A stretch of 64,000 bases of DNA from Sipunculus nudus (taxonomy: Eukaryota; Annelida; Sipuncula; Golfingiida; Sipunculidae): NCBI GenBank assembly GCA_026874595.1, contig CM049320.1:15854488-15918487 (forward strand). Direction: 5' to 3'. Numbering within the stretch: the stretch's first letter is position 1; every line of letters starts with the position of its first letter. Both the position numbers and the translations under genes were made by a program. Below, piece after piece: positions 5,178 through 64,000 of the stretch. A model generated the notes under the pieces. It was not told where the DNA came from. It saw only the letters and a list, made by a program, of their open reading frames with translations, and made no database searches.

Positions 5178-6882
5178 TCTGTAATCATAATGTCAGGCCA
5201 AGGCTATCAGTGAGGCATTAACACAAATCAATACATATAAATGTAAAATCAAAATTGTAAAGCTTGTAATCTTAATGTTAGGCTCAGGCTACCAGTGAGG
5301 CATTAACACAAATCAATACATATTAATGTAATATCAAAAGTGTGACGCCTGTAATCTTAATGTTAGGCTCAGGCTACCAGTGAGGCATTAACACAAATCA
5401 ACACATATAAATGAACAATCAAACGTGTAACGCCCGTAATCTTAATGTTAGGCTCAGGCTACCAGTGAGGCATTAACACAAATCAATACATATAAATGTA
5501 AAATCAAAAGTATAAAGCCTATAATCTTAATGTAAGGCTCATGCTATCAGTGAGGCATTAAAACAAATCAATACATATAAATGTAAAATCAAAATTGTAA
5601 AGCCTGTAATCTTAATGTTAGGCTCAGGCTACCAGTGAGGCATTAACACAAAAATCAAAACATATAAATGTACAATCAAACGTGTGACGCCTGTAATCTT
5701 AAACTTAGGCTCAGGCTACCAGTGAGGCATTAACACAAAAATCAAAACATATAAATGTACAATCAAAAGTGTGACGCCTGTAATCTTAAACTTAGGCGCA
5801 GGATACCAGTGAGGCATTAACACAAAAACAAAACATATAAATGTACAATCAAAAGTGTGACGCCTGTAACCTTAAACTTAGGCTCAGGCTACCAGTGAGG
5901 CATTAACACAAATCAATACATATAAATGTACAATCAAAAGTGTGACGCCTGTAATCTTAAATTTAGGCTCAGGATACCAGTGAGGCATTAACACAAATCA
6001 ATACATTTAAATGTACAATCAAAATTGTAAAGCCTGTAATCTTTATGTTAGGCTCAGGCTACCAGTGAGGCATTAACACAAAAATCAAAACATATAAATG
6101 TACAATCAAAAGTGTGACGCCTGTAATCTTAAACTTAGGCTCAGGATACCAGTGAGGCATTAACACAAATCAATACATATAAATGTAAAATCAAAAGCGT
6201 GACGCCTGTAATCTTAATGTTAGGCTCAGGCTACCAGTGAGGCATTAACAAAAATCAATACATATAAATGTACAACCAAAAGTGTGACCCCTGTAATCTT
6301 AAACTTAGGCTCAGGATACCAGTGAGGCATTAACACAAATCAATACATATAAATGTAAAATCAAAAGCGTGACGCCTGTAATCTTAATGTTAGGCTCAGG
6401 CTACCAGTGAGGCATTAACACAAATCAATACATATAAATGTACAATCAAAAGTGTGACACCTGTAATCTTAAACTTAGGCTCAGGATACCAATGAGGCAT
6501 TAACACAAATCAAAACATATAAATGTTCAATCAAAAGTATAAAGGCTGTAATCTTAAACTTTGGCTCAGGATACCAGTGAGGCATTAACCAGGGGTGGAT
6601 CCAGGGTTTAGGTAAAGGGGGTCTGACCCAGGAGAACTAATGAAAACCATAAAAAAGTCCCCAGGTCTGGAAAGGGGGGGGGGGGGGTCCAGGTTGCAAA
6701 ATTTTGTCTGAAGCCCTTCAAAAATTGTTTCTGATGCAAATGGGAGGGTCTGGATCCCATGGACCCCCCCCCCCGGAACCGCTTCTGTTAACACAAATAA
6801 ATACAATTAAATGTACAATCAAAAGAGTAAAGCCTGTTATCTTAATGTTAGGCTCAAGCTACCAGTGAGGCAATAACAACAA
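5178..6882. repeat. 85-bp tandem repeat array (satellite-like)
   Basis: About 18 head-to-tail copies of an 85-bp unit containing 'cttaatgttaggctcaggct', 'accagtgaggcattaacaca' and 'aatcaatacatataaatgta'. Units differ by point changes, for example 'taatgttagg' versus 'taaacttagg'. The two variants alternate in the later part of the array, suggesting amplification of a two-unit higher-order block. The array is interrupted near its end by a 198-bp MITE at 6590-6787, and a last unit follows the insertion. The unit length is not a multiple of three and reading frames are closed, so this is not coding. Confidence 0.93.
6590..6787. mobile_element. MITE with CAGGGG...GGATCC ends, 5-bp TSD (copy 1)
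   Basis: A 198-bp insertion inside the 85-bp array. It begins 'caggggtggatccagg' and ends 'ggaaccgcttctg', giving imperfect inverted ends, with 'ggatcc' also present just inside the right end. It is flanked by 5-bp direct repeats 'ttaac' at 6585-6589 and 6788-6792. Because it sits in a tandem array, the empty site is known: neighbouring units read 'ggcattaacacaaat' without it. The internal poly-G and poly-C runs are typical of this family (other copies at 16186, 20928 and 47221). The CAG start resembles hAT-type elements; the superfamily is an inference. Confidence 0.85.
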
Positions 6883-7150: not shown

Positions 7151-8780
7151 AACTATTTATTGTATCGCCAGACATAGTCTGGAGATACTATGGTTTAGGC
7201 ACGGTTGCGCCGCCGCCGCCGCCGCCGCCGCCGCAGAGATTTCTTTTGGACACAATAACTCAAAAAATATTTCACGGATCTTTACCAAACTCGGTATATG
7301 TATAGATATGGGTGAGAGGACGACGCCTATTTAAAATGAGGTCATGACCTCAACTAGGAGAGTGACCTTGACCTTGAATAGGTTCAATTTTGGGGAAAAT
7401 CACACAAATTCTTAAATATCTCAAGAAAACTTGCATGGATTGATCCCAAAATCAAGTTGATCGAAGATCATGGATAGGGTTGTCATGTTCCAGAAACTGG
7501 TGGCGCCACCTATTATTCTTTACTTGTTTTCATGCCGTTTAATATCCCCAAAATTGCTACTTGACAGTACTGTGAGCATTATAAGTCAAAAACTAATGGA
7601 CAGATTTCTTTCATATTATGCAAATACATAGATATGGGTTATGGGATGATGTTTATTTAAATTGGGGTCATGACCTTTCCCATGAGAGTGGCCTTGACCT
7701 TGAATATTGCCATATATGGTGAAAATCACACAAAATCATTAATTTCTCAATAAGGGATGCATGCATTGGTCCAAAAATCAACTTGACCGAAGATCTTGGA
7801 TAGTAATGTCATGTACCGGAAACAGGTGGCGCCACCTGTTATTCTTTTACTTGTTTTGTGTCGTTTAATACCCCATCATTGCCATTTATCAGTACTGTGA
7901 GCATTATAAGTCAAAAACTAATGGACAAATTTCTTTCATATTATGCATATACATGGATATGGGTTATAGGATAATGTTTATTTGAATAGGGGTCATGACC
8001 TTTCCAATGAGTGGCCTTGACCTTGAATATTGCCATATATGGTGAAAATCACACAAAATCATTAATTCCTCAATAAGGGATGCATGCATTGGTCCAAAAA
8101 TCAACTTGACCGAAGATCTTGAATAGTAATGTCATGTACCGGAAACAGGTGGCGCCACCTGTTATTCTTTTACTTGTTTTCGTGCCGTTTAATACCCCAT
8201 CATTGCCACTTAACAGTACATTTATAACCTGTGAGCATTATAAGTCAAAAACTAATGGACATATTTCTTTCATATTATGCATATACATAGACATGGGTTA
8301 TGGGATGATGTATATATAAATTGGGGTCATGACCTTTCCTATTAGAGTGGCCTTGACCTTGAATATTGCCATATATGGTGAAAATTACACAAAATCATTA
8401 ATATCTCAATAAGGGATACATTGATTGTTCCAAAAATCAACTTGAACGAAGATCTTGGATAGTGTTGTCATGTACGGGAAACAGGTGGTGCCACCTGTTA
8501 TTCTTTTACTTGTTTTCGTGCCGTTTAATACCCCATCATTGCCACTTAACAGTATTGTGAGCATTACAAGTCAAAAACTAATGGACAGATTTCTTGCATA
8601 TACATAGACATAGGTTAGGGGATGATGTATATTGAAATTTGGATCATGACCTTTTCTATGAGAATGACCTTTTCTATGAGTGTGGTCTGATATTAATTGT
8701 TGCTGAAGATGGGGGGCCTATTCTTAAAGGGGGGGGATTAATTGTCTGGGGATACTATGGCACCTGCGGTGCCAAGAAAT
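7151..8780. repeat. Tandem array of ~325-bp units with GGTGGCGCCACC
   Basis: The word 'gtgagcattataagtcaaaa' or a close variant begins at 7572, 7897, 8231 and 8557, giving periods of 325, 334 and 326 bp. Each unit carries 'gtggccttgaccttgaat', 'cttgaccgaagatcttgg' and the 12-bp palindrome GGTGGCGCCACC or a variant. A divergent first unit starts near 7240 after a (CGC)n run at 7208-7234. The block is bracketed by 'gtctggagatactatgg' near 7176 and 'gtctggggatactatgg' near 8746, in direct orientation. It is not coding. Confidence 0.85.
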
Positions 8781-16359: not shown

Positions 16360-16448
16360 ATGAGGCGTGGTTTTACCGTGCATGCGGATATTTGCTGACC
16401 ATCAATCATATCCATGACACGTATATTTTAGAGTTAAAGAGTAAAATA

Positions 16449-17592
16449 GTTCTATCCCCATATCAACCCGCCGCGCATCACGGAGTTCTGTCTCCATATC
16501 AACCCGCCGCGCATCACGGAGTTCTGTCTCCATATCAACCCACCGCGCATCGCGGAGTTCTATCCCCATATCAACCCACCGCGCATCACGGAGTTCTATC
16601 TCCATATCAAGCTACCGCGCATCACGGAGTTCTATCTCTATATCAAGCCACTGCGCATCACGGAGTTCTATCTCCATATCAACCCACCGCCCATCACGGA
16701 GTTCTGTCCCCATTTCAACCCACCGCGCATCACAGAGTTCTAACTCAATATCAACCCACCGCGCACAAAATAGTTCTATCCCCATATCAACCCGCCGCGC
16801 ATCACGGAGTTCTGTCTCCATATCAAGCCACCGCGCATCACGAAGTAATAACTCCATATCAACCCACCGCGCATCACACAGTTCTATCTCCATATCAACC
16901 CAGCGCGCATAAAAGAGTTCTATCCCCATATCAACCCACTGCCCATCATGGAGTTCTATCTCCAGATCAACCCACCGCGCATCAAGGAGTTCTATCTCCA
17001 TATCAACCAACCGCCCATCACGGAGTTCTATCCCCATATCATCCCACCGCGCATCATGGAGTTCTATCTCCATATCAACCCCCCCCCCCCCTTCACGGAG
17101 TTCTAACTCAATATCAACCCACCTCGCATCACAGAGTTTAAACTCAATATCAACCCACCGCGCATCACAGAGTTCTGTCTCCATATCAACCAACCGCCCA
17201 TCACGGAGTTCTGTCTCAATATCAACCCACCCAGCATCACGGAGTTTTATCCCAATATCAACCCACCGCGCATCACAGAGTTCTAACTCAATATCAACCC
17301 ACCGCGCATCACGGAGTTCTATCTCCATATCAACCCACCGCGCATCACGAAGTTCTAACTCCATATCAACCCACCGCCCATAAAGGAATTCTAACTCCAT
17401 ATCAACCCACCACGCATCACGGAGTTCTGTCTCCATATCAACCCACCGCGCATCACAGAGTTCTAACTCCATATTAATCCACCGCGCATAAAGGAGTTCT
17501 AACACCATATCAACCCACTGCGCATAAAGGAGTTCTATCCCCATATCAACCCACCGCGCATCATGGAGTTCTAACTCCATACTTACCCACGC
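16449..17592. repeat. 36-bp minisatellite, about 32 copies
   Basis: Head-to-tail units of the type 'gttctatccccatatcaac' + 'ccaccgcgcatcacgga', 36 bp long, run for about 1.14 kb. Since 36 is divisible by three, both strands stay open for long stretches: + strand 12-residue repeats like VLSPYQPTAHHG at 16392-17141, and - strand ELRDARWVDMEI at 16612-17601. Substitutions are frequent, including many non-conservative ones. The array sits inside an intron of the + strand sulfotransferase and lacks splice or start context. I therefore read it as a minisatellite, not a repeat protein. Confidence 0.92.
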
Positions 17593-25485: not shown

Positions 25486-25546
25486 GACCTTAGGTAGTAT
25501 AATGTTATCTAAGAGCTTGGATCTTTCACAAGCTGGCAGTATTCCA

Positions 25547-25835
25547 GGTAATCGTGCAATATAACGGACCCATATTTCTCTCTCTCACAAATAAGTGTGA
25601 CCACATTTCACTAAAAGTTTTTTTTTTGCATGATAAAGTTGACGATCCGGCGCATCTAATGATATCATATTTTTGTATGTTATTTAAATATTTATTTTGC
25701 TACAAACTGTCGAAAAAGGGTAGTTTGCCGAAAATACCCAAAATGACGTCGTGTCAAAGACGTTCTGAGCCGACGACATGAATCCACAGTAATATACATA
25801 TATACCATGTTAAACATTTAGATGATGTCTTATAA
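25547..25835 (+). repeat. Left terminal inverted repeat of the satellite-core element
   Basis: Aligns in reverse complement with 27937-28223 through shared words such as 'gtgcaatataacggaccc', 'ggcgcatctaatgat', 'gctacaaactgtcgaaaaag', 'gacgtcgtgtcaaagacgtt' and 'ataccatgttaaac'. It contains 'gtgtgaccacattt', the core word of the internal array. Confidence 0.9.
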
Positions 25836-27085
25836 AATTGGTGTGACCACATTTTTCACCAAAGAATATTGACAAAAATAAGGTGTGACCACATTTTATT
25901 TGACCAGCCTAATAAGTTTGTATTATAAATATAATATTATAAAATGTTGTCACATATGGGGTGACCACATTTTTCACAATAAATATTGACAAATATAAGG
26001 TTTGACCACATTTTATTTGACCAGCCATATAAGTTTGTATTATATATAGAATATTAAAAAAATGTGGTCACATTAGGTGTGACCACATTTTTTACCAATA
26101 AATATTAACAAAAATAAGGTGTGACCACATTTTATTTGACAAGCCATAAAAGTTTGTATTATATATAATATTATAAAATGTTGTCACATATGGTGTGACC
26201 ACATTTTTTACAATAAATATTGACAAAAATAAGGTGTGACCACATTTTATTTGACCAGCCATATAAGTTTGTATTATATATAGAATATTATAAAATGTGG
26301 TCACATATGGTGTGACCACATTTTTAACCCATGAATATTGACAAAGATAAGGTGTGACCAAACTTTGACCAGCCATATAAGTTTGTATTATATATATATA
26401 TATGTTATAAAATGTTGTCACATATGGTGTGACCACATTTTTAAAAATAAATTTTGCCAAAAATAAGTTGTGACCACATTTTACTTGACCAGCCATATAA
26501 GTTTGTATTATATGTAGAATATTATAAAATGTGGTCACATATGGTGTGACCACATTTTTCACCGAAGAATATTGACAAAAATAAGGTGTGACCACATTTT
26601 ATTTGACCAGCCTAATAAGTTTGTATTATATATATATAATATTATAAAATGTTGTCACATATGGTATGACCACATTTTTCACAATAAATATTGACAAAAA
26701 TAAGGTGTGACCAAACTTTGTCCAGCCATATAAGTTTGTATTATATGTAGAATATTATAAAATGTGGTCACATAAGGTGTGACCACATTTTTTACCAATA
26801 ATTATTAACAAAAATAAGGGGTGACCACATATTATTTGACAAGCCATATAAGTTTGTATTATATATATATATTTTAGAATGAGGTCACATATGGTGTGAC
26901 CACATTTTAAAATAAATATTGACAAAAATAAGGTGTGACCACATTTTATTTGAACTGCCATATATGTTTGTATTATATATATAATATTATAAAATATGGT
27001 CACATATGGCGTGACCCCATTTTTTTACCAATAAATGTTAACAAAAATACGGTGTGACCATACTTTGACCAGCCATATAAGTTTG

Positions 27086-27140
<55 letters not shown>

Positions 27141-27515
27141 AATGTGGTCACATATCGTGTGACCACATTTTTTAAATTAATTTTGCCAAAAATAAGTTGT
27201 GACCACATTTTACTTGACCAGCCATATAAGTTTGTATTATATATAGAATAATATAAAATGTGGTCACATATGGTGTGACCACATTTATTACCAATAAATA
27301 TTAACAAAAATAAGGTGTGACCACATTTTATTTGACCAGCCATATAAGATTGTATTATATATATAATATTATAAAATGTGGTCACTTATAGCGTGACCAC
27401 ATTTATTACCAATAAATATTAACAAAAATAAGGTGTGACCACATTTTATTTTACCAGCCATATAAGTTTGTATTATATATATAATATTATATAAATGTGG
27501 TAACATATGGATGAT
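25836..27515. repeat. ~120-bp hairpin-forming tandem array
   Basis: About 14 head-to-tail units. For example 'attataaaatgt' precedes the palindrome at 26521 and at 26641, exactly 120 bp apart. Each unit carries a near-perfect palindrome, 'aatgtggtcaca-tatgg-tgtgaccacatt' (12-bp arms, 5-nt loop), and a second copy of 'gtgtgaccacatttt' followed by 'ttgaccagccatataagttt'. The 120-bp period keeps minus-strand frames open and gives apparent 40-residue repeat peptides (MVTPYFCQYSSVKNVVTPYV type), which I do not consider genes. One unit contains an expanded (TA)n at 27089-27136. Confidence 0.93.
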
Positions 27516-27936
27516 ATGCCCAATATGGTCCCGTGTTTCTCCCGCGTTCGTCTCGATTTTAAGGGCTACCGGTCTGTTACTCATGGGGAGGGGATGTTCC
27601 CATCTGATTGTCCTTACATAAAGTAGTCTAACAGGACAAAAAAAATAAATAAGATAAATGACATGTATAAAATGTAGTCTATATACTCTGTCCACAAAAA
27701 TGACTGTTTATTACACAATTTATATTCATTTGACATATAAAACGTACATAGAGACAAAGCTGAATAGAGCAAGAGTTAACGTGTTCAGTCGAATACATTC
27801 ACAGACGACAGTTGCATGTTTATGTTTTTGGCGGCACGACGTCGTCAACTTTTATTAAATCTTGGGAAATATAGATATTTAAAGGTGTAAAATTGTCTCT
27901 ATATCTATGCATAAAAAGATATATTGACTGTAATTT

Positions 27937-28223
27937 TTGTTAGACATCATCCTTTTGTTTAACATGGTATGCACGTACAGTACTGTGGATTCATGACGTC
28001 GGCTGAGAACGTCTTTGACACGACGTCATTTTTGGGTATTTTTAGCAAACTACCCTTTTTCGACAGTTTGTAGCAAAATATATTCATATCAAACATACAA
28101 AAATATTGTATCATTAGATGCGCTGGATCTTCGACTTTTACATGAAACAGTTTTTTCATTGAAATGTGGTCACACTTTTATGTGAGACCATGTAAGATGG
28201 GTCCGTTATATTGCACGATTACC
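27937..28223 (-). repeat. Right terminal inverted repeat of the satellite-core element
   Basis: Reverse complement of the left repeat, with scattered substitutions and short indels. The terminal ~25 bp are identical to the left end. Confidence 0.9.
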
Positions 28224-28231
28224 GTATTCCA

Positions 28232-31135: not shown

Positions 31136-31965
31136 TCGTATTATTGATCACTATACAGTTATTCTTATAATAGTTGTTAATAATCTGCCGATGGCCCTAA
31201 GTTATCTTCCATTCCTAACAGTTTTATCCACCATCATGATCTTATCCTTCTTACATCAGTTTTGTTATAGTTTTTTCATCATCCATATCTTTTCATGGTT
31301 TATGTTATGTATCCTTATTTTTTTTTGTATGTAATGCATGTTTAGTATATCCAAAACATACTGATCAATACAAAATTGTAGGACCACAAGTATGACCAGT
31401 GGCATTGTAAAATCATCGTATAATTTATATCAATATGGGTATTAGTGTTGAACAGGTAAGAATTGGGCCTTTACATACAGGATACTGAAACGATCACACT
31501 CAAAGGTTACTAGGGAACTTCATGCATTGCGTGATTTGTTTTTATCAACAATTCACAATAAAAAGGTTTATAGACATATTAATAGCTCTTTACTCGGATG
31601 TACACCCAAACCCTGGACCTCCCCTGGTTCAAACATCTATAACTAAATTCGTAACATTCAGTCCTGTAAACATTAAAAGCATAATGTCTGAGCGCAAACT
31701 TGATAAATAACATCACTTATGTAAACAAAATAATATTGCAGTTTTGTGACTAAAAGAAAATTGGCTAAACGGCAATATAGACAATCATCTAATAGCAATT
31801 GATGGGATGAATGAACCGTTACGCAGGGACCGAAATACACATGGGGAGAAGTAGCTGTGTATGCGAGTAATGAGCTATCGAGTGTGCGCTGAACTGATCT
31901 AGAAAGAGTACTGGAAAACTATTAATAGTGCTTGTTCCACACAAAATAAATCTGGAAATATTAAC

Positions 31966-32364
31966 ATGGAAACCTTTGTGAATCACTTTAAACACCTGGG
32001 CAATAAAAAATGCACAAATGAAAACACAAGTAGCGAAACTTATAACCCAGGGAGTGCAGGTCACACCATTAATGAATTCATTAATGGCAGTTTCACTGTT
32101 GAGGAAGTAGTGCCAATAATCAGAAAGCTCAAGAACAATAAAGCAAGTGGTGTAGATAATATCCTAAATGAATTTATAAAAAACTGCCCCCAAAAGGTTG
32201 TACAAATTATAGTAAAGATGTTTAATATTGTCTTAGAAACTGGATTAGTCCCTAAGGACTGGTGTACCGGAATTATTCAACCAATATATAAAAAGAAAGG
32301 TGCTACTGATAATCCTGATAATTATCGGGGCATAACTTTATTAAGCTGTTCAAAGCAACAATGA
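31966..32364 (+). pseudogene. LINE A reverse transcriptase, N-terminal fragment (left)
   Basis: Open for 132 codons. It shows KLKNNKASGVDNILNEFIKN (RT block 1 region), then WCTGIIQPIYKKKG and DNPDNYRGITLLS (block 2). The frame is lost at 32362 where family members continue into the KLF motif, so this is a pseudogene fragment. The reading continues in other frames towards the palm domain. Confidence 0.8.
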
Positions 32365-32499
32365 ATGTCAGGCTGGCAAACTATATAGATGCCTGTGGAA
32401 TAATGGGCGATGAGCCAGCAGGGTTTAGAGAGGGTTATTCCACCCTTGACCACATTTTTGTCCTACATTCACTGCTTGAGCTTTATATGCATAACAAAC

Positions 32500-33055
32500 G
32501 ATAGTATTTTGTGCTTTTATTGACTACAAGAAAGCTTTTGACCTAATCGATAGATCTTCTCTGTGGTATAAGCTGATAAATAATGGTATCAACGGCAAAG
32601 TCTTAAAAGTAATATACAACATGTACAAAAATGGCAAATCTTGCATAAAAAATGGAAGACTTCTATCTGACTCCTTTACCTGTAATGTTGGAGTGCGTCA
32701 GGGTGAAAACCTGTCGCCACTTTTATTTGCCATATATTTGAATGATTTTGAATTTATTATAAGTCGCAGCTATAATGGTTTAGGCCTGTTGGCCGATACT
32801 TTAAGAAGCAACCTCAGTGATGATGACACTGAATTATTTCTAAGATAATATGCTCTCCTCTATGCGGATGATACTATTTTTATGGCAGAATCACCTGAAG
32901 ATTTGCAGACTGCCCTAAATGCTGTCCATGATTATTGTGGCAAATGGAATCTAAGCGTCAACACAGAGAAGACAAAAGTGGCTATTTTTGCCAAAGGAAA
33001 AGTCAGGTTATGTCCATCCTTCTATTTTGGTAATGAGATGCTAGAATATCGGGTT
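32500..33055 (+). pseudogene. LINE A reverse transcriptase palm domain (left)
   Basis: Translations in shifted frames give FIDYKKAFDLIDR (first catalytic Asp), NVGVRQGENLSPLLFAIYLN and ALLYADDT (the YADD catalytic pair), then SVNTEKTKVAIF. A stop interrupts between ELFLR and YALLYADDT at about 32846. The catalytic residues remain visible, but the frame is broken at least twice. Confidence 0.8.
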
Positions 33056-33109
33056 TGAAAAATATCTGAACATATTAAATTTTGGTGACAGAATAGCCCT
33101 CACTAAATT

Positions 33110-33389
33110 TCGCTGTGCAAATCATAAACTGCCAGTATCCAACAGCAACCCTGACCATTTAACTGGCTCTAAGGCATGTACCCTATGCAACATGAATGAG
33201 CAGGGTGATGAATTCCACTACCTTTTTATATGCCCTGAATTTAGACAAGAAAGACTCAACTATATAAACCAGTACTATAGTATCAGACTAAACACTCTAA
33301 AAATGCATGAATTATTCAGTGACACAGACCAACTTCAGCTGTCAAACCTAGCCAAGTTTGCTAAAAAGATTATATCCAAATTTAATTAA
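33110..33389 (+). pseudogene. LINE A C-terminal domain (left)
   Basis: Encodes FRCANHKLPVSNS, then the cysteine/histidine block CTLCNMNEQGDEFHYLFICP and a basic tail ending KIISKFN at the stop 33387-33389. This Cys-rich region is usual at the end of LINE polyproteins. It follows the deletion junction at about 33055, where upstream RT/connection sequence ends abruptly. Confidence 0.75.
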
Positions 33390-33956
33390 AGAATACTATG
33401 TACAAAATATTTACAATGTCTATATATGATCACCCTTATATTTGCTCAACCAGGTTTATCCTCATGAAGTGTATGAAATGCTCATTCATTTCTTGTAAAG
33501 TATGGAGCAAGTTTGTTATTCTTAAGCAGCATCAACAACACAACTGCAATACCTGTCGTGTTTATTGATCTCATAATGACACTTTGATACTAGAACTTGT
33601 AAGAAATCTTGATGGTACCCAGATTGTGTATTTTTTTGCAACTAGTCACTGTCTATCTGATTGTTAACCCACCAGATTGAATTTATGTGCATATACATTT
33701 ATATTCTTAGGTAACAAAAAGGCATTGTCTAATATAGGAATCATGCCTATATCATAGAAATACTATTGCACAAGTCAATGCATGTAAACAAGCTGCTTTA
33801 TATTTTTCTATGCACTTATTTATCTCCATATATTATTTATGTGATATATGTATTATTTTCTCTATCATTATACAATTTTTTACCTACAGTGACATGACAT
33901 ACACAGGCTTTCCTATTTATACCCTTATGGAGTAAATCAAAACACATGCGTGTATG

Positions 33957-33989
<33 letters not shown>

Positions 33990-33992
33990 GTT
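33957..33992. repeat. (TA)n microsatellite in LINE A 3' region, left arm only
   Basis: An interrupted TA run. The corresponding right-arm position (about 61065-61085) has only a short 'gtatatatacatac', so the run expanded after duplication or contracted on the right. Confidence 0.8.
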
Positions 33993-34571
33993 TATATGTT
34001 TATTTCTAATTTTTGTAACAAAATGTGCTTGACATGCATATATAAGGCTTCTCTACCTCTACCGTATAAGTGATGGATCTCATTATACATTAAATGTACA
34101 AAAAACTAAGAAGTAAATCATAGACAAGGTGCCTTATAATATACACTATTATCACTTTAGGAAACTTTCTTAGTCCAAAATATATAGCCAGCAACTTATG
34201 TTTTATACTAAAGCATACAAGTTTAAATGCATATTCACTTGAAGTAAATGTTACTGCACCTAATACCTGTGATATGACTCTATAGTATATGTAGTACTGT
34301 TTGTACCTACACTTTTATACAAACTTGAATGTTTACAAGCAAGTTAGTGATAGTTCACTTGCACTAGAAGATATAGATTGTATGTACACTTATATACACG
34401 AACACACCCAATGTATGTTTTCAAACAAATGAGAGCTGTGTACATTGTGTAAGCATTACCTGTGATACAGTAGTATATATAGTTACATGTAATCACAGTA
34501 CATCCTGTATATACACTGTAATATAGTTTTGCATGACTCTGTATACCTCGAAAGGGGTCACTTGAGTTGAA

Positions 34572-34581
34572 TAAATTATTG

Positions 34582-34612
<31 letters not shown>
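34572..34612. repeat. (ATT)n tail of LINE A (left)
   Basis: A run of ATT triplets directly after 'gagttgaataaattattgtt'. LINEs of several clades end in short tandem repeats instead of poly(A). Endonuclease-like sequence of LINE B follows immediately. Confidence 0.8.
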
Positions 34613-37451
34613 GATCCAAATATTGATACATTTGGACAGAAAACATGATCAATAATAACAAAAAGAAAATTCTTTAGGTACTTATTATAGGCCGCCTGGC
34701 CAGACATTAGATCAGTGAGACATATTCCTGGAAGCATTAACACAGTATTGAACTAGCTCTATCAGAAAGACCGTATTCCCTGTTGATTACAGGGGATTTC
34801 AGTGATAGATGTAACAGATGGGATTCTGATCATATACAAATAGTGACTTGGGGAACAATTTAGTGAATTTAGTGGCACATAGTGGCCTGTTCCAACTAGG
34901 TGATTAACCCACCAGGATTAGCGAACTTAAATCTTTACTCCTCGATCTACTTATAACCGATACGACACGCATAGTAAATAATGTTGGCATTCTACACCTA
35001 ATATCGACATGTGACCACAAGGTGCTTGTTTGGTCAATGTCTTTGAAAATAAAAAATAAGAGCGCCGTATAAAAGAAAAGTTTATTATTTAAAATATTCA
35101 GACTTCATCGGTCTCAAAGAATCTCTAAGCTCAGCTCCCTGGGGGTATCTTTATATATTGTTGATGATGTTTCTGAAATGGCAAATTATTATGAGCAGTT
35201 ATTACTGGAAACTATACATACTTTTGTCCCTAATAAAAAAGTGTGTTTATAGAGGCCAACGATTTACCCTGGATGAATCATGAATTGAAAAAAAATCTAA
35301 TGAAAAACAGAAACAGGCAATGGAAAAGATATGAAAGAACAAGAAATCCTGAACATTTTCAGTCTTTTGAAAAGGCAAGCAATCAAGTGGTCTTAGAAAA
35401 TAGGAAGAATTACAAGATTTATATGGCAGGCATAAACCAAAGATTTATGCACCAGAATACCGAGACCGCTGCGTGGTTAAAACTATCTCGATCTTTTTTT
35501 TAAGAATAAAAAGCTACAAAAGGTACCTTAACCTCAAGCAAGGCAGGCACTTATGGGTTCTTTGTAGCGCAGTGCTGTACGGAGGCCAACGAAGATGTAA
35601 TTTCTGATGACAAGGAATCTATCCCGCCTTGTTCTCACACATTAACAAATGTAAAGTTTTCTGAAAATGAAGTTTAATATGTTTTAAAATCTTTAAGAAA
35701 AAACAAAGCTACTGGTCCAGGGGAAATCGGTAATTTTATTCTTAAAGAAATAACATCTGCAGTTTCAAAACCTCTCACTAAATGATTCATCTCATGCATG
35801 AAGAACGCAACTTTTCCCTCTGAATGGAAAAAGGCACACGTACTTCCTTAGTTTAAAAAAGGTGCCCGGAATATAATTGATAATTATAGGCCAATATCTT
35901 TACTAAATGATATTTCGTAAGTATTAGGAAATTAGAAAGTATTTGTAAATAATAAAATATACGAACATCTAATAATAAATAATCTATTGACTGATATTGA
36001 CTGATAACGGTCTTAAAAACGGGTATGATACCAGACTTATATGCCTCGATGCTTCTAAGGCTTTCGATCGTGTCTGTCATTAAGCATTAATACATAAATT
36101 GAAATCTGTAGGGATTTAAAGTCAATTTCAAAAGTTCCTTGGAAGTTATTTAAGTAACAGAAAACAGTGCGTGATCCTCGAGGGATGTAAATCTAACTAT
36201 ACATGTATGTAAATTTCCTCGAGCTCCACAAGGCTTTATTCTGGGACCGCTCTTATTTATAATTAATACAAATGACATACATATAGGTCTAGAAATGACA
36301 TACATATAGGTCTTCTATTAAGGACCCAGTGATAGGCGCTGAATCACTGAACAGAAATTTAGAACGTGTCAACAAATTGGCCGAACGATGATGCTTGGTG
36401 CTAAATCCGGACAAAACCCAAGAAATTTGCTTCACAAAAAAGGAAGTATAAAATTAATCATCCACCCTTGTTTTTAAATGGGAAAATCCTCAAACAAACA
36501 GACAACTTAACTCATCTCAGTTTTAAAATCAATGGAACTTTGTCTTGGTACGAATATATAAATAACATCTCTCTTAAAGCAAGTAAACGCCTGGGGACCC
36601 TTAAATATTATATATTTCATTTCTTAATGAAAATACTAAATCGTATGTATAAGGCTATGGTTCGTTCCATTTTGGAATATGGTTGTTAAATATTTATGAA
36701 ATGCTCTGCACAACAACAGAACCAAATGGAAAGTATACAGAAGCAGGCAGCAATCATTTGTACTGGAGCATTAACAACTACACCAACAATAAAATTGTTA
36801 ACAGACTTAGGATGGCCATCATTACAAAAACGCAGGGAATTCATGATTGTAACAACGTTCCATCACATGATGAATGGTCATGCATCAGGATACCTTATCA
36901 ATCTGATACCACACATAGTATCTCAACACTCGCAATATAAACTTAGAAATGAGCATAATCTCCCTTTTTTAATTACAGTAAAGCGATGGAGTCTTTTCTA
37001 CCAACTGCCTGTAAATTATGAAATAAACTAACATTGACAACTCGAAGCATTGCTAATACTGAAACAATAAAAAAGTTAAACAAACACTTAAATCAATATT
37101 CAGCACACTTGTCTTTTCATATAAACAGCAGAAACCTTGAGATAATTCTTAACAAACTAAAATACAAGGTTATGTCCCTTGAATCAGTAACTATTCAGTA
37201 GAGGGAAATCTGACACCTTATATTGTAATAGCGACTTGGAACAGGAGCGTGTAGAACACTATATGTTAAAACGCACAAATTATATTAAAACCAGAGAGAA
37301 ACTGTTCAGTGATATCAAGTCACTATATAAGAAATTTGACAATCAGCCACTAATCTTTATAAATTATGTTGCCAACAACAATGAAAGAAATAACTGCTTG
37401 GTACTAATGCTGCTCACTTGTAAAAATGTACCAATGGCATTTCCAAGGTAG
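34613..37451 (+). mobile_element. LINE B, left copy, 5'-truncated and decayed
   Basis: A second non-LTR element, in the same orientation as LINE A and beginning right after its (ATT)n tail. In broken frames it shows late endonuclease sequence (GTYYRPPGQTLDQ at ~34677, ITGDFSDRCNRWDSDH at ~34790, then LLLDL and CDHKVLVWSMS). Next come a basic linker (NRNRQWKRYERTRNPEHFQS), RT blocks (EWKKAHVLP, NYRPISLLND, LDASKAFDRV, FPRAPQGFILGPLL) and a C-terminal domain ending KNVPMAFPR at 37451. Many stops are present. The RT layout is jockey/CR1-like; the clade is an inference. Confidence 0.85.
37236..37451 (+). pseudogene. LINE B C-terminal fragment (left)
   Basis: An open 71-codon stretch, ...YMLKRTNYIKTREKLFSDIK...CLVLMLLTCKNVPMAFPR. 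It is nearly identical to the end of the longer right-arm ORF at 57598-58017, which identifies it as the LINE B tail and not an independent gene. Confidence 0.8.
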
Positions 37452-38180
37452 ATTAGGTAAAATAATTATGAATATAATTATAATATAATTTAAAATGCAC
37501 CAATCGTTTTAGTGTCCTAAAGCAGGAAGATGAAAAGAATTATAAGTAGACAGTCATGCAATTCATGACTTTAGAGTTTATGTGTCAGCACCCAAATATA
37601 TAATTTTATAAGTCCTATAAATTATACGAGGCTTCATATGCATGTCACGGTCCTATCTAAATTTGCTTGCTGGCGCAGTGTACATAATGTATAAGTTACT
37701 CGTGTGCCGTCTCTTCATATTCGCTCTATATGTTATATATGTGCAGGAGAGCAATTATATAGACAAATAGGCTACTTTTGTAATTCTGTTTAAATGAATA
37801 TGTTAAAATCAAGGTATTTGTAGCAGGAACTTAAGGCTGCATCTAAACCTGTCTTCAGCCAGTGACTTAATCCCTGGCCGTGATGACAGGGACGACGACC
37901 TAGTCATGACAGTTAAATATCCGAGCTAGTCTAATAAGCTAATCCTACCATACAAAAATATTTATAACATTGTACATGTTTTATTATTTTTTTATTTAGC
38001 ATTTATTTTTATTATGCTGCTGTCCCTTCTGTTTGCGCACATGTGAGTTTACTTTATCTGTTAATACAATGTACTGCTTTTAAATAAGATGTTACCGTGG
38101 TGTCAACCGATGATATGACAGCTAGCTGTCTCCTTATCTGTTACTTTTATTTTTATTCGAGTTTGAGGGATATTTTGTGT
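37452..38180. other. Arm sequence between LINE B and the PAN fragment (left)
   Basis: Non-coding sequence shared with the right arm (56600-57597, reversed). It holds a single copy of a 57-bp unit at ~37695-37760 that is expanded to about five copies in the right arm. Confidence 0.65.
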
Positions 38181-38412
38181 TACTCACGGGCACTCCGCGT
38201 CACTCTGACTGAGGATTCTGTTGACAGCTGTGACTCCAGTTGAAAGTCAGAAACAAGTCTTCCGGTTCAGGGGTAGGATGACACGTGTCTGTTGATGTCG
38301 GGTCTGCTGTCACTAAGAACGCTGAACAATAGACATGTGTCATCTGGCATCAAACGTTCAACCGATCATAGAACAAGTTCACAACTGCCGTTGTGGAAAA
38401 AATTGACCTCCT
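38181..38412 (-). pseudogene. PAN-domain exon fragment, left-arm copy
   Basis: Read on the minus strand it parallels the 3' part of the PAN exon at about 43960-44200 and the right-arm copy at 56341-56590: 'tgaacttgttctat', 'gatgccagatgacacatgtc', 'cagcgttctt' and the terminal 'gcccgtgagtaa'. It is more diverged than the right-arm copy and its frame is interrupted. It has no lectin exons behind it, so it is a captured or duplicated exon piece. Confidence 0.75.
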
Positions 38413-39455
38413 TACATTTCTATGTTGATTACATTTAGTCAAAATAAATATATTAACCCAATACAAAAACCAACTAACTTCGTCTTAAAGCTTTTCCCTA
38501 GATAATGAATCAAGCAGGTTCATAAGTTATATATCTATATAAGCTAACACTGTAGTATTCTTCATGGTATATCGGTATTATGTTACGTGTTCTGGTATTA
38601 TTTAACGTTTCTGTTCATTAATTTACGTTTCTTTGCATTTTTATAACTCGACTAAAGGTGGAATGTTCGATTCCCCGAATGAGGCTATTTTCTTTTCATT
38701 ATATAATACATTGTTACAGGTGCCCTTTTTGCAACGGTTTTGCATGTGTTTCCTTTATTGTGCGCGGGGGTGCTCCATGCGTTGTTGACATTTGGTTTGT
38801 GTGCCACGCGTAGCTCGTGTTGTAGCGGCCTCGCCTGGCTGGATGTTGCAGGCTCGGTTTAATCAGCATTGGTTGAACCCTGGCGTGTAGATACACAGTG
38901 TTCTTTGTTCAAGTATGTTCTTTGAGCGTGTTTATTATGTTCGAGAAATGGAACGTTCTCGGCTTGAGGTAAAAAGTTATATAACGAGGCTGTGTTTTAA
39001 AGCCGGGAGAGAGGTGAGAAAATATTCTAGCGGACACGGAAGCGTGATAGTCAGTTGTGGGACCTATCCGATTATCCAGTAATTTCAGGGATTATATTAA
39101 TTCTATATAATATATTGCTGCCTGTTTCATTACATTAGACTGTTATTCTCTGAAAAGATTTATGTGGACTGTTCATTCGGTTTATACATTTTAAAGGACT
39201 TGTCGCTGTGACAGTGGTGGTATCCAGTTACTGTGCACTTTGTATAATTTACTGTGTGATTTTATAGTTTTATAGTTTATATGTAATATAAATTTATAGA
39301 TATAGTATATCGTTTATAGTTTTATGTATTCAACAAGATTTCTTCTCCTTTGCATATTTTCTGAAACTGATTTTTATTTCGTTTATTTATTTTTTATTCT
39401 GCTGAATTTAGGTTATATATGCACGGGAATTAGAAATAATCCATAAATTATAACC
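38413..39455. other. Inner end of the left arm, non-coding
   Basis: Matches right-arm sequence 55440-56340 in reverse complement. The last part (39318-39455, 'gtattcaacaagatttcttc' to 'ataatccataaattataac') instead matches 53774-53915 reversed. No coding potential is seen. 'ttcgattcccc' near 38667 resembles a tRNA box B but has no box A partner. Confidence 0.6.
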
Positions 39456-45183: not shown

Positions 45184-45594
45184 AAACTGGAACTTGAAGT
45201 CATATTTTGTTTTGAAGCTGGACAGGTTTGCTTCATATATACACATGGAGCACTCGTGCTTATAAGGACATGTTGAAATAAGGACGATTGTCTCTCTGTA
45301 GCTGTCCGACTGTCTGTTGCTTTGTCAGGATTTCCGCCTTTGTATTATCTTTTTAAACCAACACAGTCTTAGTGATTTCCTAAATAAAAGAAAAACATTA
45401 TCTATTATTATAGAAAGAGGAATATCTATCTTCTTGCCTTTTTGTAAGTTATTGAGAAAGCAGGAGTTTCGAAGTCTATTTTTCCTTTCATATTTGTACA
45501 GTGCATACACTCAAAAATTTATATTTATATGCGATTTATATTTATATGGTTCGTATGAGTACTTGAAATGTGGTCACAACATGAAAACACATTG

Positions 45595-45650
<56 letters not shown>

Positions 45651-55250: not shown

Positions 55251-56340
55251 TACCTTGAACGGTAATTTCATTACATTTCATGTTGTTACGGAACCTAATA
55301 TCAACAGATTTCGTATACGTGATGAACATAAAGTTTGTAATGGAGATAAAAAAATCAGATTCTATAACACTAGACAGCGTGAAATGTCTAGGGGAATGAA
55401 GGCAGTGGTTTTTTGTTAACAAATAACTATTATTTAATCTAAAAATCAACCCTAACATTACAATACACTAATCAATACAATTACACAGTATAACAACAGT
55501 ATAACAGCAAATCAATACAATCACACAGTAAATTAAACAAAGTGCACAGCTACAAGTCCTTTAAAATGTATAAACCGAATGAACAGTTCACATAAATCTT
55601 CTCAGAGAATAACAGTACAATTTAATGAGACAGGCGGCACTAAATTGTATAGAATTAAAAGAATCCCTGAAATTACTGGATAATCGGATAGGTCCCACAA
55701 CTGACTAACACGCTTCCGTGTCCGCTGGAATATTTTCTCACCTCTCTCCCGGCTTTAAAACACAGCCTCTTTATATAACTTTTCACCTCAAGCCGAGAAC
55801 TTTCTATTTCTCGAACATAATAAACACGCTCAAAGAACATACTAGAACAAAGAACGCTGTGTATCTACACACCAGGGTTCAACCAATGCGGATTAAACCG
55901 AGCCTGCAACATCCAGTCAGGCGAGGCCGCTACAACACGAGCTACGCGTGGCACACAAACCAAATGTCAACAACGCATGGAGCACCCCCGCGCACAATAA
56001 AGGAAACACATGCAAACCCGCTGCACACAATAAAAACAATGTATTATATAATAAAAAGAAAATAGCCTCATTCGGGGAATCGAACATTCCACCTTTAGTC
56101 GCGTTATAATAATGCAAAGAAACGTAAATTAATGAACAGAAACGTTAAATAATACCAAAACACGTAACATAATACCGATATAACATGAAGAATACTACAG
56201 TGTTAGCTTATATAGATATATAACTTATGAAACTGCTTGATTCATTATCTTTAGGGAAAAGCTTTAAGACGAAGTTAGTTGGTTTTTATAATGGGTTAAT
56301 ATATTTATTTTGACTAAATGTAATTAACATAGAAATTTAA

Positions 56341-56590
56341 GGAGATCAATGTGTACCATAACGGCACGAGTGAACTTGTTCTATCATCGGTTGAACGTAT
56401 GATGCCAGATGACACATGTCTATCGTTCAGCGTTCTTGGTGGCGGGAGACCCGTAGGGAGAGAATCCGACACAAAACGACACCTGTCAGCAAGCCCCAGA
56501 ACCAGTAGACGTGTATCAGCTGACGTCATATCTGGTGGACAGCTGTTAACAGAATCCTCGGTCAGGGTTACGCGGATTGCCCGTGAGAAA
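56341..56590 (+). pseudogene. PAN-domain exon fragment, right-arm copy
   Basis: Encodes VYHNGTSELVLSSVERMMPD, then DTCLSFSVLGGGRPVGRESD, TKRHLSASPRTSRRVSADVI and SGGQLLTESSVRVTRIARE. This is nearly the same as the 3' part of the exon at 43960-44197, but the Cys before E-L is replaced by Ser. It lacks the N-terminal CxxxC half and the lectin exons. The donor-like site is CCC|GTGAGA. The frame is still open, so the copy is younger or less eroded than the left one. Confidence 0.8.
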
Positions 56591-57009
56591 CACAAAATAT
56601 CTCTAGAACTTGAATAAAAATAAAAGTAACAGACAAAGCTAAAAAGTAAAGAGACAGCTAGCTGTCATATCATCGGTTGACACCATGGTAACATCTTATT
56701 TAAAAGCAGTACATTGTATTAACAAATAAAGTAAACTTACATAAGCGCAAACAGAAGGGACAGCAGCATAATATAAATACTAAAAAAAATAATAAAATAT
56801 GTACAATGTTATAAATATTATTGTATGGTAGGATTAGCTTATTAGACTAGCTCGGATATTTAACTGTCATGACTAGGTCGTCGTCCCTGTCATCATGGCT
56901 AGGGATTCAGTCACTGGCTGAAGACAGGTTGAGACGTACCCTTAGATTCCTGCTACAAATACCTTGATTTTAACATATTCATTTAAACAGGATTACAAAA
57001 GTAGCCTAT

Positions 57010-57345
57010 TTGGCTATATAATTGCTCTCCTGCACATATATAACATATAGATCAAACATGAAGAGACAGCTAATATGATTGCTCTCCTGTACATGTATAA
57101 CATATAGAAGAAACATGAAGAGACAGCTAATATGATTGCTCTCCTGAACATGTATAACATATAGAACAAACATGAAGAGACAGCTAATATAATTGCTCTC
57201 CTGTACACATATAACATATAGAGCAAACATGGAGAGACAGCTAATATGATTGCTCTCCTGTACAAATATATCATATAGAGCAAACATGAAGAGACAGCTT
57301 ATATGATTGCTCTCCTGCACATATATAACCTATAGAGCGAATATG
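57010..57345. repeat. 57-bp tandem repeat, about five copies, right arm only
   Basis: Units of the form 'catgaagagacagctaatat' + 'gattgctctcctgtacat' + 'ataacatatag', e.g. 'catg' at 57057 and 57114. The left arm has a single copy at the corresponding place. 57 is divisible by three, so minus-strand frames stay open and give false repeat peptides. Confidence 0.9.
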
Positions 57346-57597
57346 AAGAGGCGGCACACGAGTAACTTATACATTATGTTTACTGCGCGAGCAAGCAAAT
57401 TTAAATAAGACCGTGACATGCATATGAAGCCTCGTATAAATTATAGGGCTTATAAAATTACATATTTGGGTGCTGACACATAAACTCTAAAGTCATGAAT
57501 TGCATGACTGTTTACTAATAATTCTTTTTCATCTTCCTACTTTAGGACACCAAAACGATTGGTGCATTTTAAATACTTTATAATTATATTACCTAAT

Positions 57598-58017
57598 CTA
57601 CCTTGGAAATGCCATTGGTACATTTTTACAAGTGAGCAGCATTAGTACCAAGCAGCTATTTCTTTCATTGTTGTTGGCAACATAATTTATAAAGATTAGT
57701 GGCTGATTGTCAAATTTCTTATATAGTGACTTGATATCACTGAACAGTTTCTCTCTGGTTTTAATATAATTTGTGCGTTTTAACATATAGTGTTCTATAC
57801 TCTTCTGTTCCAAATCGCAATTACAATATGGGGTATCGGATTTCTCTATACTGAATAGGTACTGATTCAAGGGACAAGCATGGTATTTTAGTCTGTTAAG
57901 TATTATCTCAAAGTATCTACTCTTTATATGTAAAGACAAGTGTGTTGAATATTGATTTAAGTGTTTGTTTAACTTATTCTTGAATGTTTCAGTATAAGCA
58001 ATGCTTCGAGTTGTCAA
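57598..58017 (-). pseudogene. LINE B C-terminal region (right)
   Basis: An open 139 codons, from TTRSIAYTETFKNKLNKHLN to CKNVPMAFPR. It includes a Cys cluster (PYCNCDLEQKSIEHYMLKR) typical of the end of jockey/CR1-like polyproteins. It is the longest intact C-terminal piece of LINE B in the window. Confidence 0.75.
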
Positions 58018-58121
58018 TGGTAGTTTATTTCATTATTACAGGCAGTTGGTAGAAAAGACTCCTTCGCTTTACTGTACTTAAAAATGGGAGATTTTACATT
58101 ATGCGCATTTCTAAATTTATA

Positions 58122-58589
58122 TTACCAGTGTTGAGATACTATGTGTGGTATTAGGCTGATAAGGTACCTTGGTGCATGACCATTCATCATGTGATGGAAC
58201 GTTGTTATGATCATGAATTCCCTGCGTTTTTGTAATGATGGCCATCCTATGTCTGTTAACATTTTTATTGTTGGTTTAGTTGTTAAAGCTCTAGTACAAA
58301 TGAGTGCTGCCTGCCTCTGTATACTTTCCATTTGGTTCTGTTGCTGTGCAGAGCATTTCATAAATATTTGACAACCATATTCCAAAATGGGACGGACCAT
58401 AGCCTTATACATACGATTTAGTATTTTCATTACGAAATGAAATTTATAATATTTAAGGATCCTCAGGCATTTAGCTGCTTTGAGACAGATGTTATTTATA
58501 GATTCGTACCAAGACAAAGTTCCATTGATTTTAAAACTGAGATGAGTTAAGTTGTCTGATTGTTTGGGGATTTTCCTATTTAAATACAA
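58122..58589 (-). pseudogene. LINE B post-RT domain (right)
   Basis: An open 155 codons with the post-RT 'thumb/connection' layout: LGxxI-like block (TLSWYESINNICLKAAKCLR), then RMYKAMVRPILEYGCQIFMK and MESIQRQAALICTRALTTKP. The order V-R-P-I-L-E-Y-G and the later RRxFM are hallmarks of jockey/CR1-type LINE proteins. Upstream RT palm sequence (SKAFDRV and YADD-type segments, 58750-59050) is in other frames. Confidence 0.8.
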
Positions 58590-59042
58590 GGGTGGATGAT
58601 TAATTTTATACTTCCTTTTTTGTGAAGCAAATTTCTTGGGTTTTATCCGGATTTAGCACCAAGCAACATCGTTCGGCCCAGTTGTTGACATGTTCTAAAT
58701 TTCTCTTCAGTGATTCAGCGCCTATCACTGGGTCGTTAATAGAAGAATATAGACAGGTATCATCCGCGTACAGAAGTATGTTGTTTTCTAGACTAAAATG
58801 TATGTCATTTGTATTAATTATAAATAAGAGCGGTCCCAGAATAGAGCCTTGTGGAACTCGAGGAAATTTACATACATATAGTTAGATCTACATCCCTCGA
58901 GGATAAAGCACTGTTACTTAAATAACTTCCAAGAAACGATTGCAATTGACTTTGAATCCCTCCAGATTTCAATTTTTGTGTTAATGCTTTATGCCAGACT
59001 TGATCGAAAGCCTAAGAAGCATCGAGGCATGTAAGTCTGGTA

Positions 59043-59324
59043 TCATACCCTTTTTTTAAGACCGTTATAAATGTCATGACACAATTTTATCAACAGGTAC
59101 ACTGTGCTATGATTCTTTTTGTACCCTGAATTAAGATCAGTCAATAGATTATTTATTATAAGATGTTCGTATATTTTATTATTTACAAGGCATTCTAATA
59201 CTTTAGAAATATCATTTAGTAAAGATATTGGCCGATAATTATCAATTATATTCCGGGCACCTTTTATAAACTTAGGAAGTACGTGGGCCTTTTTCCATTC
59301 CGAGAGAAAAGTTCCGTTCTTCAT
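59043..59324 (-). pseudogene. LINE B reverse transcriptase N-terminal part (right)
   Basis: 93 open codons: WKKAHVLPKFIKGARN, NYRPISLLNDISKVLECLVN, then LNSGYKKNHSTVYLLIKL. These are RT blocks 1-2a. The frame is lost before the first catalytic Asp. Confidence 0.8.
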
Positions 59325-60475
59325 GCATGAGTTGAATCATTTAGCGAGAGGTTTTGACTGCAGATGCTATTTCTTTAAGAATAAAATTACCGATTTCCCC
59401 TGGACCAGTAGCTTTGTTTGTTCTTTAAGATTTTGAAACATTTTAAACTTCATTTTAAGAAAACTCTACATTTGTCAATGTGTGAGAACAAGGCGGGATA
59501 GATTCCTTGTCATCAGAATTTACATCTTCGTTGGCCTCCGTACAGCACTGCGCTACAAAGAACCCATAAGTGCCTGCCTTGCTTGAGGTTAAGGTACCTT
59601 TTGTAGCTTTTTTTCTTAAAAAAATATCGAGATAGTTCCAACCACGCAGTGGTCTCGGTATTCTGGTGCATTAATCTTTGGTTTATGCCTGCCATATAAA
59701 TCTTGTAATTCTTCCTATTTTCTATGACCACTTGATTTCTTGCCTTTTTAAAAGACTGAAAATGTTCAGGATTTCTTGTTCTTTCATATCTTTTCCATTG
59801 CCTGTTTCTGTTTTTCATTAGATTTTTTTCAATTCATGATTCATCCAGAGTTAATGGTTGGCCTCTATTAACACACTTTTTTATTAAGGACAAAAAATAT
59901 GTATAGTTTCCAGTAATAACTGCTCATAATCATTTGCCATATCAGAAACATCATCAACAATATCAAAAGACACCCCCAGGGAGCTGAGCTTAGAGATTCT
60001 TTGAAACCGATAATAAACTTTTCTTTTATTCGGCGCTCTTATTTTTTATTTTCAAAGACATTGACCAAACAAGCACGTTGTGGTCACATGTCGATATTGG
60101 GTGTAGAATGCCAACATTATTTACCATGCGTGTCGTATCTGTTTTAAGTAGATCGAGGAGTAAAGATGTAAGTTCGCAAATCCTAGTTGGTTGATCACCT
60201 AGTTGGAACAGGCCACTATGTGCCACTAAATTCATTAAATTGTTCCCCAAGTCACTATTTGTATATGATCAGAATCCCATCTGTTACATCTATCACTGAA
60301 ATCCCCTGTAAGGGAATAGGGTCTTTCTGATAGAGCTAGTTCAATACTATGTGTTAATGCTTCCAGGAATATGTCTCTCTGATCTAATGTCTGGCCAGGC
60401 GGCCTATAATAAGTACCTAAAAGAATTCTTTTTGTTATTATTGATCATGTTTTCTGTCCAAATGTATCAATATTT

Positions 60476-63400: not shown

Positions 63401-63650
63401 TTATTTTGTTTACATAAGTGATGTTATTTATCAAGTTTGCGCTCAGACATTATGCTTTTAAAGTTTACAGGACTGAATGTTACGAATTTGGTTATAGATG
63501 TTTGAACCTGGGGAGGTCCTGGGTTTCGGTGTACATCCAAGTAAAGAGCTTTTAGTATGTCTATAAACCGTTTGCTTTGAATTGTTGATAAAAACGAATC
63601 ACGCAATGCATGAAGTTCCGCTAGTAACCTTTAAGTGTGATCGTTTCAGT
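60476..63650 (-). mobile_element. LINE A, right copy, same internal deletions
   Basis: Minus-strand counterpart of 31500-34612. The (AAT)n tail is at 60485-60520, and the 5' ORF start with DVHRNPGPP lies at about 63510-63540. The two internal deletion junctions (endonuclease loss near 63230, RT-to-C-terminal jump near 62090) are at the same sequences as in the left copy. RT palm segments are cleaner here: FCAFIDYKKAFDLIDR (62461-62664), then GVRQGENLSQLFFAIYLN and LYALLYADDTIVMAE (62096-62494). Confidence 0.85.
62096..62494 (-). pseudogene. LINE A reverse transcriptase palm with intact YADD (right)
   Basis: 132 open codons spanning CNIGVRQGENLSQLFFAIYL to ALLYADDTIVMAELPEDLQT and SVNTEKTKVAILPKEK. 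The YADD catalytic pair is intact, and no stop separates ELFLR from YALLYADD as in the left copy. The frame is lost towards 62497 against the preceding FIDYKKAFD segment. Confidence 0.8.
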
Positions 63651-64000
63651 GTCCTGTATATAAAGGATCCAATTCTTCCCTGTTCAACACTAATACTCAT
63701 ATTGACATAAATCATACGATGATTTTACAATGCCACTGGTCATACCTTTGTCCTACTTGTTGTATTTATTTATATGTCCCTGGATATACTAAACATGCGA
63801 TAAATACACGAAAAAAAGGATGAATACATAACATAAACCATAAAAAGATATTGATGATGAAAAAACTATAACAAAACTTATGTAAGAAGGATAAGATCAT
63901 GCTGGTTGATAAAACTGTTAGGAATGGAGGATTACTTAGGGCCAGCGGCAGATTATTAACAACTATTATAAGAATAACTGTATAGTGATCATTAATACGA

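Follow-up and report, generated by a model that had tools for sequence, protein, structure and literature searches.

The window analysed here, a 64,000-nucleotide stretch of Sipunculus nudus DNA, holds one complete element with terminal inverted repeats (arms), a central tandem array and a spacer (Table 1), and it lies at exactly the coordinates of the original prediction. The flanking target duplication had been described as perfect, and this was confirmed: GTATTCCA stands without a mismatch on both sides of the element, and since the next bases outward differ, the duplication is 8 bp and not 9 bp. The sequence GGTAATCGTGCAATATAACGGACCCAT opens the element and, in inverted orientation, closes it, so that both ends begin with 5'-GG. 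The two ends were also said to be identical, which is true of their outer 27 bp but not of the arms as a whole; aligned to each other, the arms match at 248 of 297 columns (283 ungapped), and have thus diverged from each other.

Table 1. Features of the element and their positions in the window (bp, basepairs).
Feature	Position	Strand	Basis or remark
Whole element	25547-28223		2677 bp, of which 1005 bp lie outside the array
Left target site duplication, GTATTCCA	25539..25546	n/a	Sequence reading and window scan
Left terminal inverted repeat, 291 bp, starts GGTAATCGTGCAATATAACGGACCCAT	25547..25837	+	Alignment of arms
Subterminal motif GTGTGACCACATTT, left arm	25595..25608	+	First base is base 49 counting inward from the left end
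Tandem array, 14 monomers of ~118 bp	25839..27510	+	Consensus carries the motif core three times, two direct and one inverted
Six-monomer block m1-m6, first copy	25842..26544	+	Monomer comparison
Six-monomer block m7-m12, second copy	26545..27273	+	652/695 ungapped columns identical to m1-m6
(TA)n expansion within monomer 11	27089..27139	n/a	Tandem-repeat analysis
Spacer, array to right arm, 424 bp	27511..27934	n/a	Single copy in the window; its open frames give no Pfam match above cut-off
Right terminal inverted repeat, 289 bp	27935..28223	-	Alignment of arms
Subterminal motif GTGTGACCACATTT, right arm	28162..28175	-	First base is base 49 counting inward from the right end
Right target site duplication, GTATTCCA	28224..28231	n/a	Sequence reading and window scan

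We searched the entire window for inverted ends that match perfectly over 12 bp, lie 80 to 6000 bp apart and are flanked by a perfect duplication of 5-10 bp, leaving out ends and duplications of low complexity (fewer than three different bases). Apart from pairs nested within this element, the search returned nothing but the element itself. If independent bases are assumed, the chance of an 8-mer duplication at one given site is ~2.9e-5, and the expected number of inverted 27-mer pairs no more than 6 kb apart is ~1.9e-7 for the window; the probability that the ends together with the duplication arose by chance is negligible. The window contains a single copy of the element (n=1). A second copy of the 300-bp flanks of the element was likewise absent from the window, which thus offers no empty site for comparison.

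Elsewhere in the window we noted a large inverted duplication (31136-39210 and 55545-64000), whose two arms are ~16 kb apart and which extends to the window's right end. Its aligned pieces, of 4466, 2385 and 1539 columns, are 89.6-92.7% identical, and both arms carry a reverse transcriptase piece above the Pfam cut-off (32495-32845 and 62099-62548). Other tandem arrays are found at 5179-6589 (85-bp unit, 16.5 copies), at 7302-8671 (326-bp unit, 4.2 copies) and at 16448-17581 (36-bp unit, 31 copies), the last with long open frames overlapping on both strands. An open frame of 332 amino acids at 21538-22533 matches sulfotransferase (E 4.5e-8). The window yielded no tRNA, and no Rfam family at the gathering score.

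To describe the coding content of the element, all 28 stop-to-stop frames of at least 40 amino acids that overlap it were compared with Pfam at E values up to 10; in a first set of ten of these frames, one starts to the left of the element and three extend into the array. No frame (0/28) gave a match at or above the curated cut-off, and no transposase was named among the weaker matches. These weaker matches (TMEM251, 0.017; DUF7300, 0.07; DUF1801, 0.093; DUF6492, 0.15; Glyco_transf_99, 8.5; and RING-type and C5HC2 zinc-finger profiles in array frames, best 0.011) are taken as chance. The DDE_Tnp_IS1595 transposase, in particular, is absent from all 28 frames at the Pfam cut-off. The element as it stands is non-autonomous, and the boundaries described above make it almost certainly a transposon of the terminal-inverted-repeat, cut-and-paste type. 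For the one copy at hand, the structure gives good support to the proposal of a non-autonomous DNA transposon with satellite-like DNA. As in a MITE, inverted repeats and a target duplication are present without transposase coding; however, MITEs are given a size of 80-500 bp in PMC2874221, and neither the whole element nor its length without the array falls within that range. MITEs are there also described as occurring in large numbers, as against the one copy in this window.

The array lies centrally between the arms, in a single orientation, and is 1672 bp long. Thirteen of its monomers measure 113-120 bp and one, swollen by a (TA)n run, 148 bp, in agreement with the ~120-bp tandem repeat that had been predicted; pairwise identity between monomers is 86-98%. 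The predicted array length of ~1.7 kb was likewise right, but the 2.68 kb that had been assigned to the interior is the length of the whole element. The description of the element as foldback-like did not hold, because the array is central and in one orientation and no tandem array was found inside either arm, unlike in the Tetris element discussed below. With the array between the arms and not inside them, we rejected a typical foldback element.

A satellite core built of hairpins had also been predicted, and all 13 monomer junctions indeed fit the hairpin pattern TGTGGTCACA / TGTGACCACA (with at most two mismatches per half), the hairpins arising where inverted and direct copies of a motif meet. 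Four pieces were folded as DNA: one junction, two single monomers and one 120-bp piece of the spacer. The junction reached -14.5 kcal/mol (z -5.4), a stability equalled by none of 200 shuffles. The two monomers gave z of -4.2 and -4.6, with the second direct motif copy pairing with the inverted one, and the spacer piece folded alongside them gave z of +1.2.

The monomers also retain a trace of how the array grew. Their mean identity is highest at a lag of six (0.926 versus 0.891-0.907 at lags 1-5 and 7), an excess with a permutation p of 0.0018, or 0.006 over seven lags. Monomers 1-6 and 7-12 are 93.8% identical as blocks, compared with 88.9-90.2% in three other registers. The peak at lag six and the match between the two blocks show that the array grew partly by duplication of six monomers as one block, an outcome expected of unequal exchange. 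We also observed that over the first eight monomers (25945-26772) the inverted motif copy alternates between TGTTGT and TGTGGT, a two-monomer pattern within the six-monomer block.

The arms and the array have a sequence in common. The 14-mer GTGTGACCACATTT is present in both arms and in the monomer consensus, which contains two direct copies and one inverted copy of TGTGACCACATTT. With one mismatch allowed, the ten-base core of the motif is found about three times per monomer, 41 of the 42 expected copies being present (direct, 27/28; inverted, 14/14). Outside the array, at the same stringency, there is one copy per arm, and four more lie in the window outside the element. Dinucleotide shuffling of the consensus, repeated 5000 times, gave a string of 14 common to both arms and the consensus only once. 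Judged by local alignment score, the similarity between arm and monomer is less marked, the score being equalled by 4/500 shuffles for the left arm and 22/500 for the right arm. On balance, it is likelier that motif and monomer have a common origin than that they do not. As to direction, we lean slightly towards the array having been derived from the subterminal motif. A candidate stray monomer at 45563-45628 was rejected; it looks like a TA run beside one core copy, which we take as chance. Within the array (25839-27510), the core ACCACA/TGTGGT resembles the RUNX binding consensus, probably by coincidence.

The opposite direction, to which we give appreciable but less than even probability, is that a transposon captured a pre-existing satellite monomer, the common 14-mer being a coincidence or the site of a host protein. 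Such a capture has been proposed for miDNA4 in Xenopus, according to the review PMC12628747. It would agree with the finding that outside the motif the arm-monomer match is no better than in shuffles: once the motif was masked, scores dropped to 18-25, the shuffle means being 26.7 and 24.7. Nor are the motif columns significantly more conserved among the monomers than the others (0.951 versus 0.921, rank 17 of 118 circular shifts), so that column conservation gives no significant sign of selection on the motif. What argues against capture is that the 14-mer stands at an equal distance from both ends of the element, together with the rarity of such a match among the 5000 shuffles.

It is also conceivable, though we rather doubt it, that the hairpins themselves drove the growth of the array. 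Replication would stall at the palindromes and slip, and the array would be a by-product of secondary structure. Every junction is near-palindromic, the junction and both monomers that were folded are stable, and stem-loop models have been published for such arrays (PMC12628747; PMC8268682). However, stem mismatches such as the TGTTGT of 4 of 13 junctions look, by eye, uncompensated on the opposite side, and the pairing does not look maintained. Hairpin-driven growth and amplification of a subterminal motif, which is part of our best explanation, can hold together.

By structure, the ends of the element are Merlin-type. According to PMC8101967, Merlin ends start with GG in new and earlier families alike, the duplications measure 8 or 9 bp and the inverted repeats 24-462 bp; here, one copy combines 5'-GG, an 8-bp duplication and arms of 291 and 289 bp. 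The original prediction held that the ends do not settle the superfamily, which stands in that they are no proof, but GG, 8 bp and long inverted repeats all match this description. Of the termini that it proposed for comparison, those of Merlin fit structurally and those of hAT do not, owing to arm length. Structure alone cannot prove Merlin, because hAT, Zisupton and P elements also leave 8-bp duplications and Tetris leaves duplications of 8-10 bp; membership of the superfamily is something we infer. Since this copy contains no DDE_Tnp_IS1595 transposase, we do not file it as a Merlin member. In a mollusc survey, which may not apply to the host's group, Merlin is a minor superfamily, nearly confined to cephalopods in automatic libraries and represented by 63 elements in a frame-based count (PMC10294476). 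We nevertheless consider a Merlin-type transposase the probable mobilizer of the element.

Other classes fit less well. Helitrons are not known to leave a target duplication, and the inverted repeats of the Helitron or pearl type are subterminal, whereas this element has terminal repeats and an 8-bp duplication, though a tandem core is common to both. A member of the Mutator superfamily, or a foldback-type derivative of Mutator, is unlikely here, even though the majority of foldback elements have been assigned to Mutator, including Tetris, which has 8-10 bp duplications and was placed there by its authors (PMC4079207). The long arms fit such an origin, but the position of the array outside the arms does not. 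Moreover, duplications of at least 9 bp are the rule for Mutator, and the one here is exactly 8 bp. Derivation from hAT, P or Zisupton, which share the 8-bp duplication, is improbable, as hAT and P ends normally lack the initial GG. Galileo, of the P superfamily, does have tandem repeats in its arms that provide additional sites for transposase binding (via PMC4079207), but hAT, which leaves 8-bp duplications, has arms of 5-27 bp (PMC2874221), and is unlikely because the arms here are ~290 bp.

Overall, the best explanation, and in our judgement a probable one, is a cut-and-paste, non-autonomous transposon with Merlin-type ends whose subterminal motif has been amplified internally. A transposase produced elsewhere would recognize the ends and mobilize the element in trans, the identical outer 27 bp being the natural core recognition site, and its insertion here would have left the 8-bp target duplication. 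The 14-bp motif at position 49 inside each end would probably be a second, putative subterminal recognition site; that the transposase itself binds this motif is a tentative suggestion. Between the arms, the motif-bearing segment would have multiplied in tandem to give monomers of ~118 bp, and unequal exchange would later have duplicated the six-monomer block.

We think it improbable that the array further acts as a binding platform, on which ~40 internal copies of the subterminal site would gather transposase and thereby raise mobility or titrate the enzyme. If it did, selection would have favoured the satellite as a binding platform at a stage before it could turn into a satellite of the genome, and a Merlin-type element would be using a central array as Galileo is proposed to use the repeats inside its arms. 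In any case, the element is a clean single example that bears on the question of how satellites arise within transposons, in which the duplication, the arms, the motif and the history of the blocks can all be read. If there are sister copies of lower monomer number, they could reveal stepwise how a subterminal site became an array.

Wider searches gave no relatives. Used as exact patterns, the ends of the element had 0 matches in viral contigs (24-mer) and 0 in prokaryotic contigs (21-mer); the whole element had no match among plasmids, and the spacer none among phages at E 0.01. Absence from viral, prokaryotic, plasmid and phage DNA means little for an apparently eukaryotic sequence. A search of literature text with the end and motif strings returned, within the text it covered, nothing related, the sole occurrence being in unrelated work.

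The nearest precedent we found for the proposed mechanism is Tetris of Drosophila virilis, which, like the element here, is non-autonomous, and which has duplications of 8-10 bp (PMC4079207). As described there, the repeats of Tetris are ~220 bp long, lie inside the arms and have 37 bp in common with the terminal domain of the arms, whereas here one central array of ~118-bp monomers has 14 bp in common with them. The authors of Tetris proposed that extra transposase sites raise the efficiency of transposition, as in Galileo. Galileo, also of Drosophila, resembles our element in its repeated motif copies that may also serve at the ends; it belongs, however, to the P superfamily and carries its repeats in the arms, with reported transposase binding sites, whereas the motif here is a putative site (via PMC4079207). 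Some Merlin families likewise carry tandem repeats, with 52-bp and 163-bp units, but the families described in PMC8101967 contain the DDE_Tnp_IS1595 domain that this copy lacks.

Tandem-repeat cores are known from MITE-like elements of molluscs (PMC5139131; PMC5874043). The pearl family of molluscs (DTC84, CvA) is, as here, non-coding and mobile with a satellite-like repeat core, and DTC84 has a palindrome near the repeat junction, as does our element; in contrast, CvA has subterminal inverted repeats in place of true terminal repeats with an 8-bp duplication, and pearl arrays have up to six repeats as opposed to 14 (PMC5139131, PMC5874043, PMC11136912). CvA, CvE and CvG are named as Helitron/Helentron examples in PMC11136912. 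The Xenopus MITEs miDNA4 and Xstir have internal tandem arrays as well, although miDNA4 is, unlike the present element, of the Tc1/mariner type (via the review PMC12628747). A MITE of Porphyromonas gingivalis, which is bacterial and likened here by description only, similarly contains a minisatellite inside an inverted-repeat element (PMC4596501). The general kind of element described here was already known.
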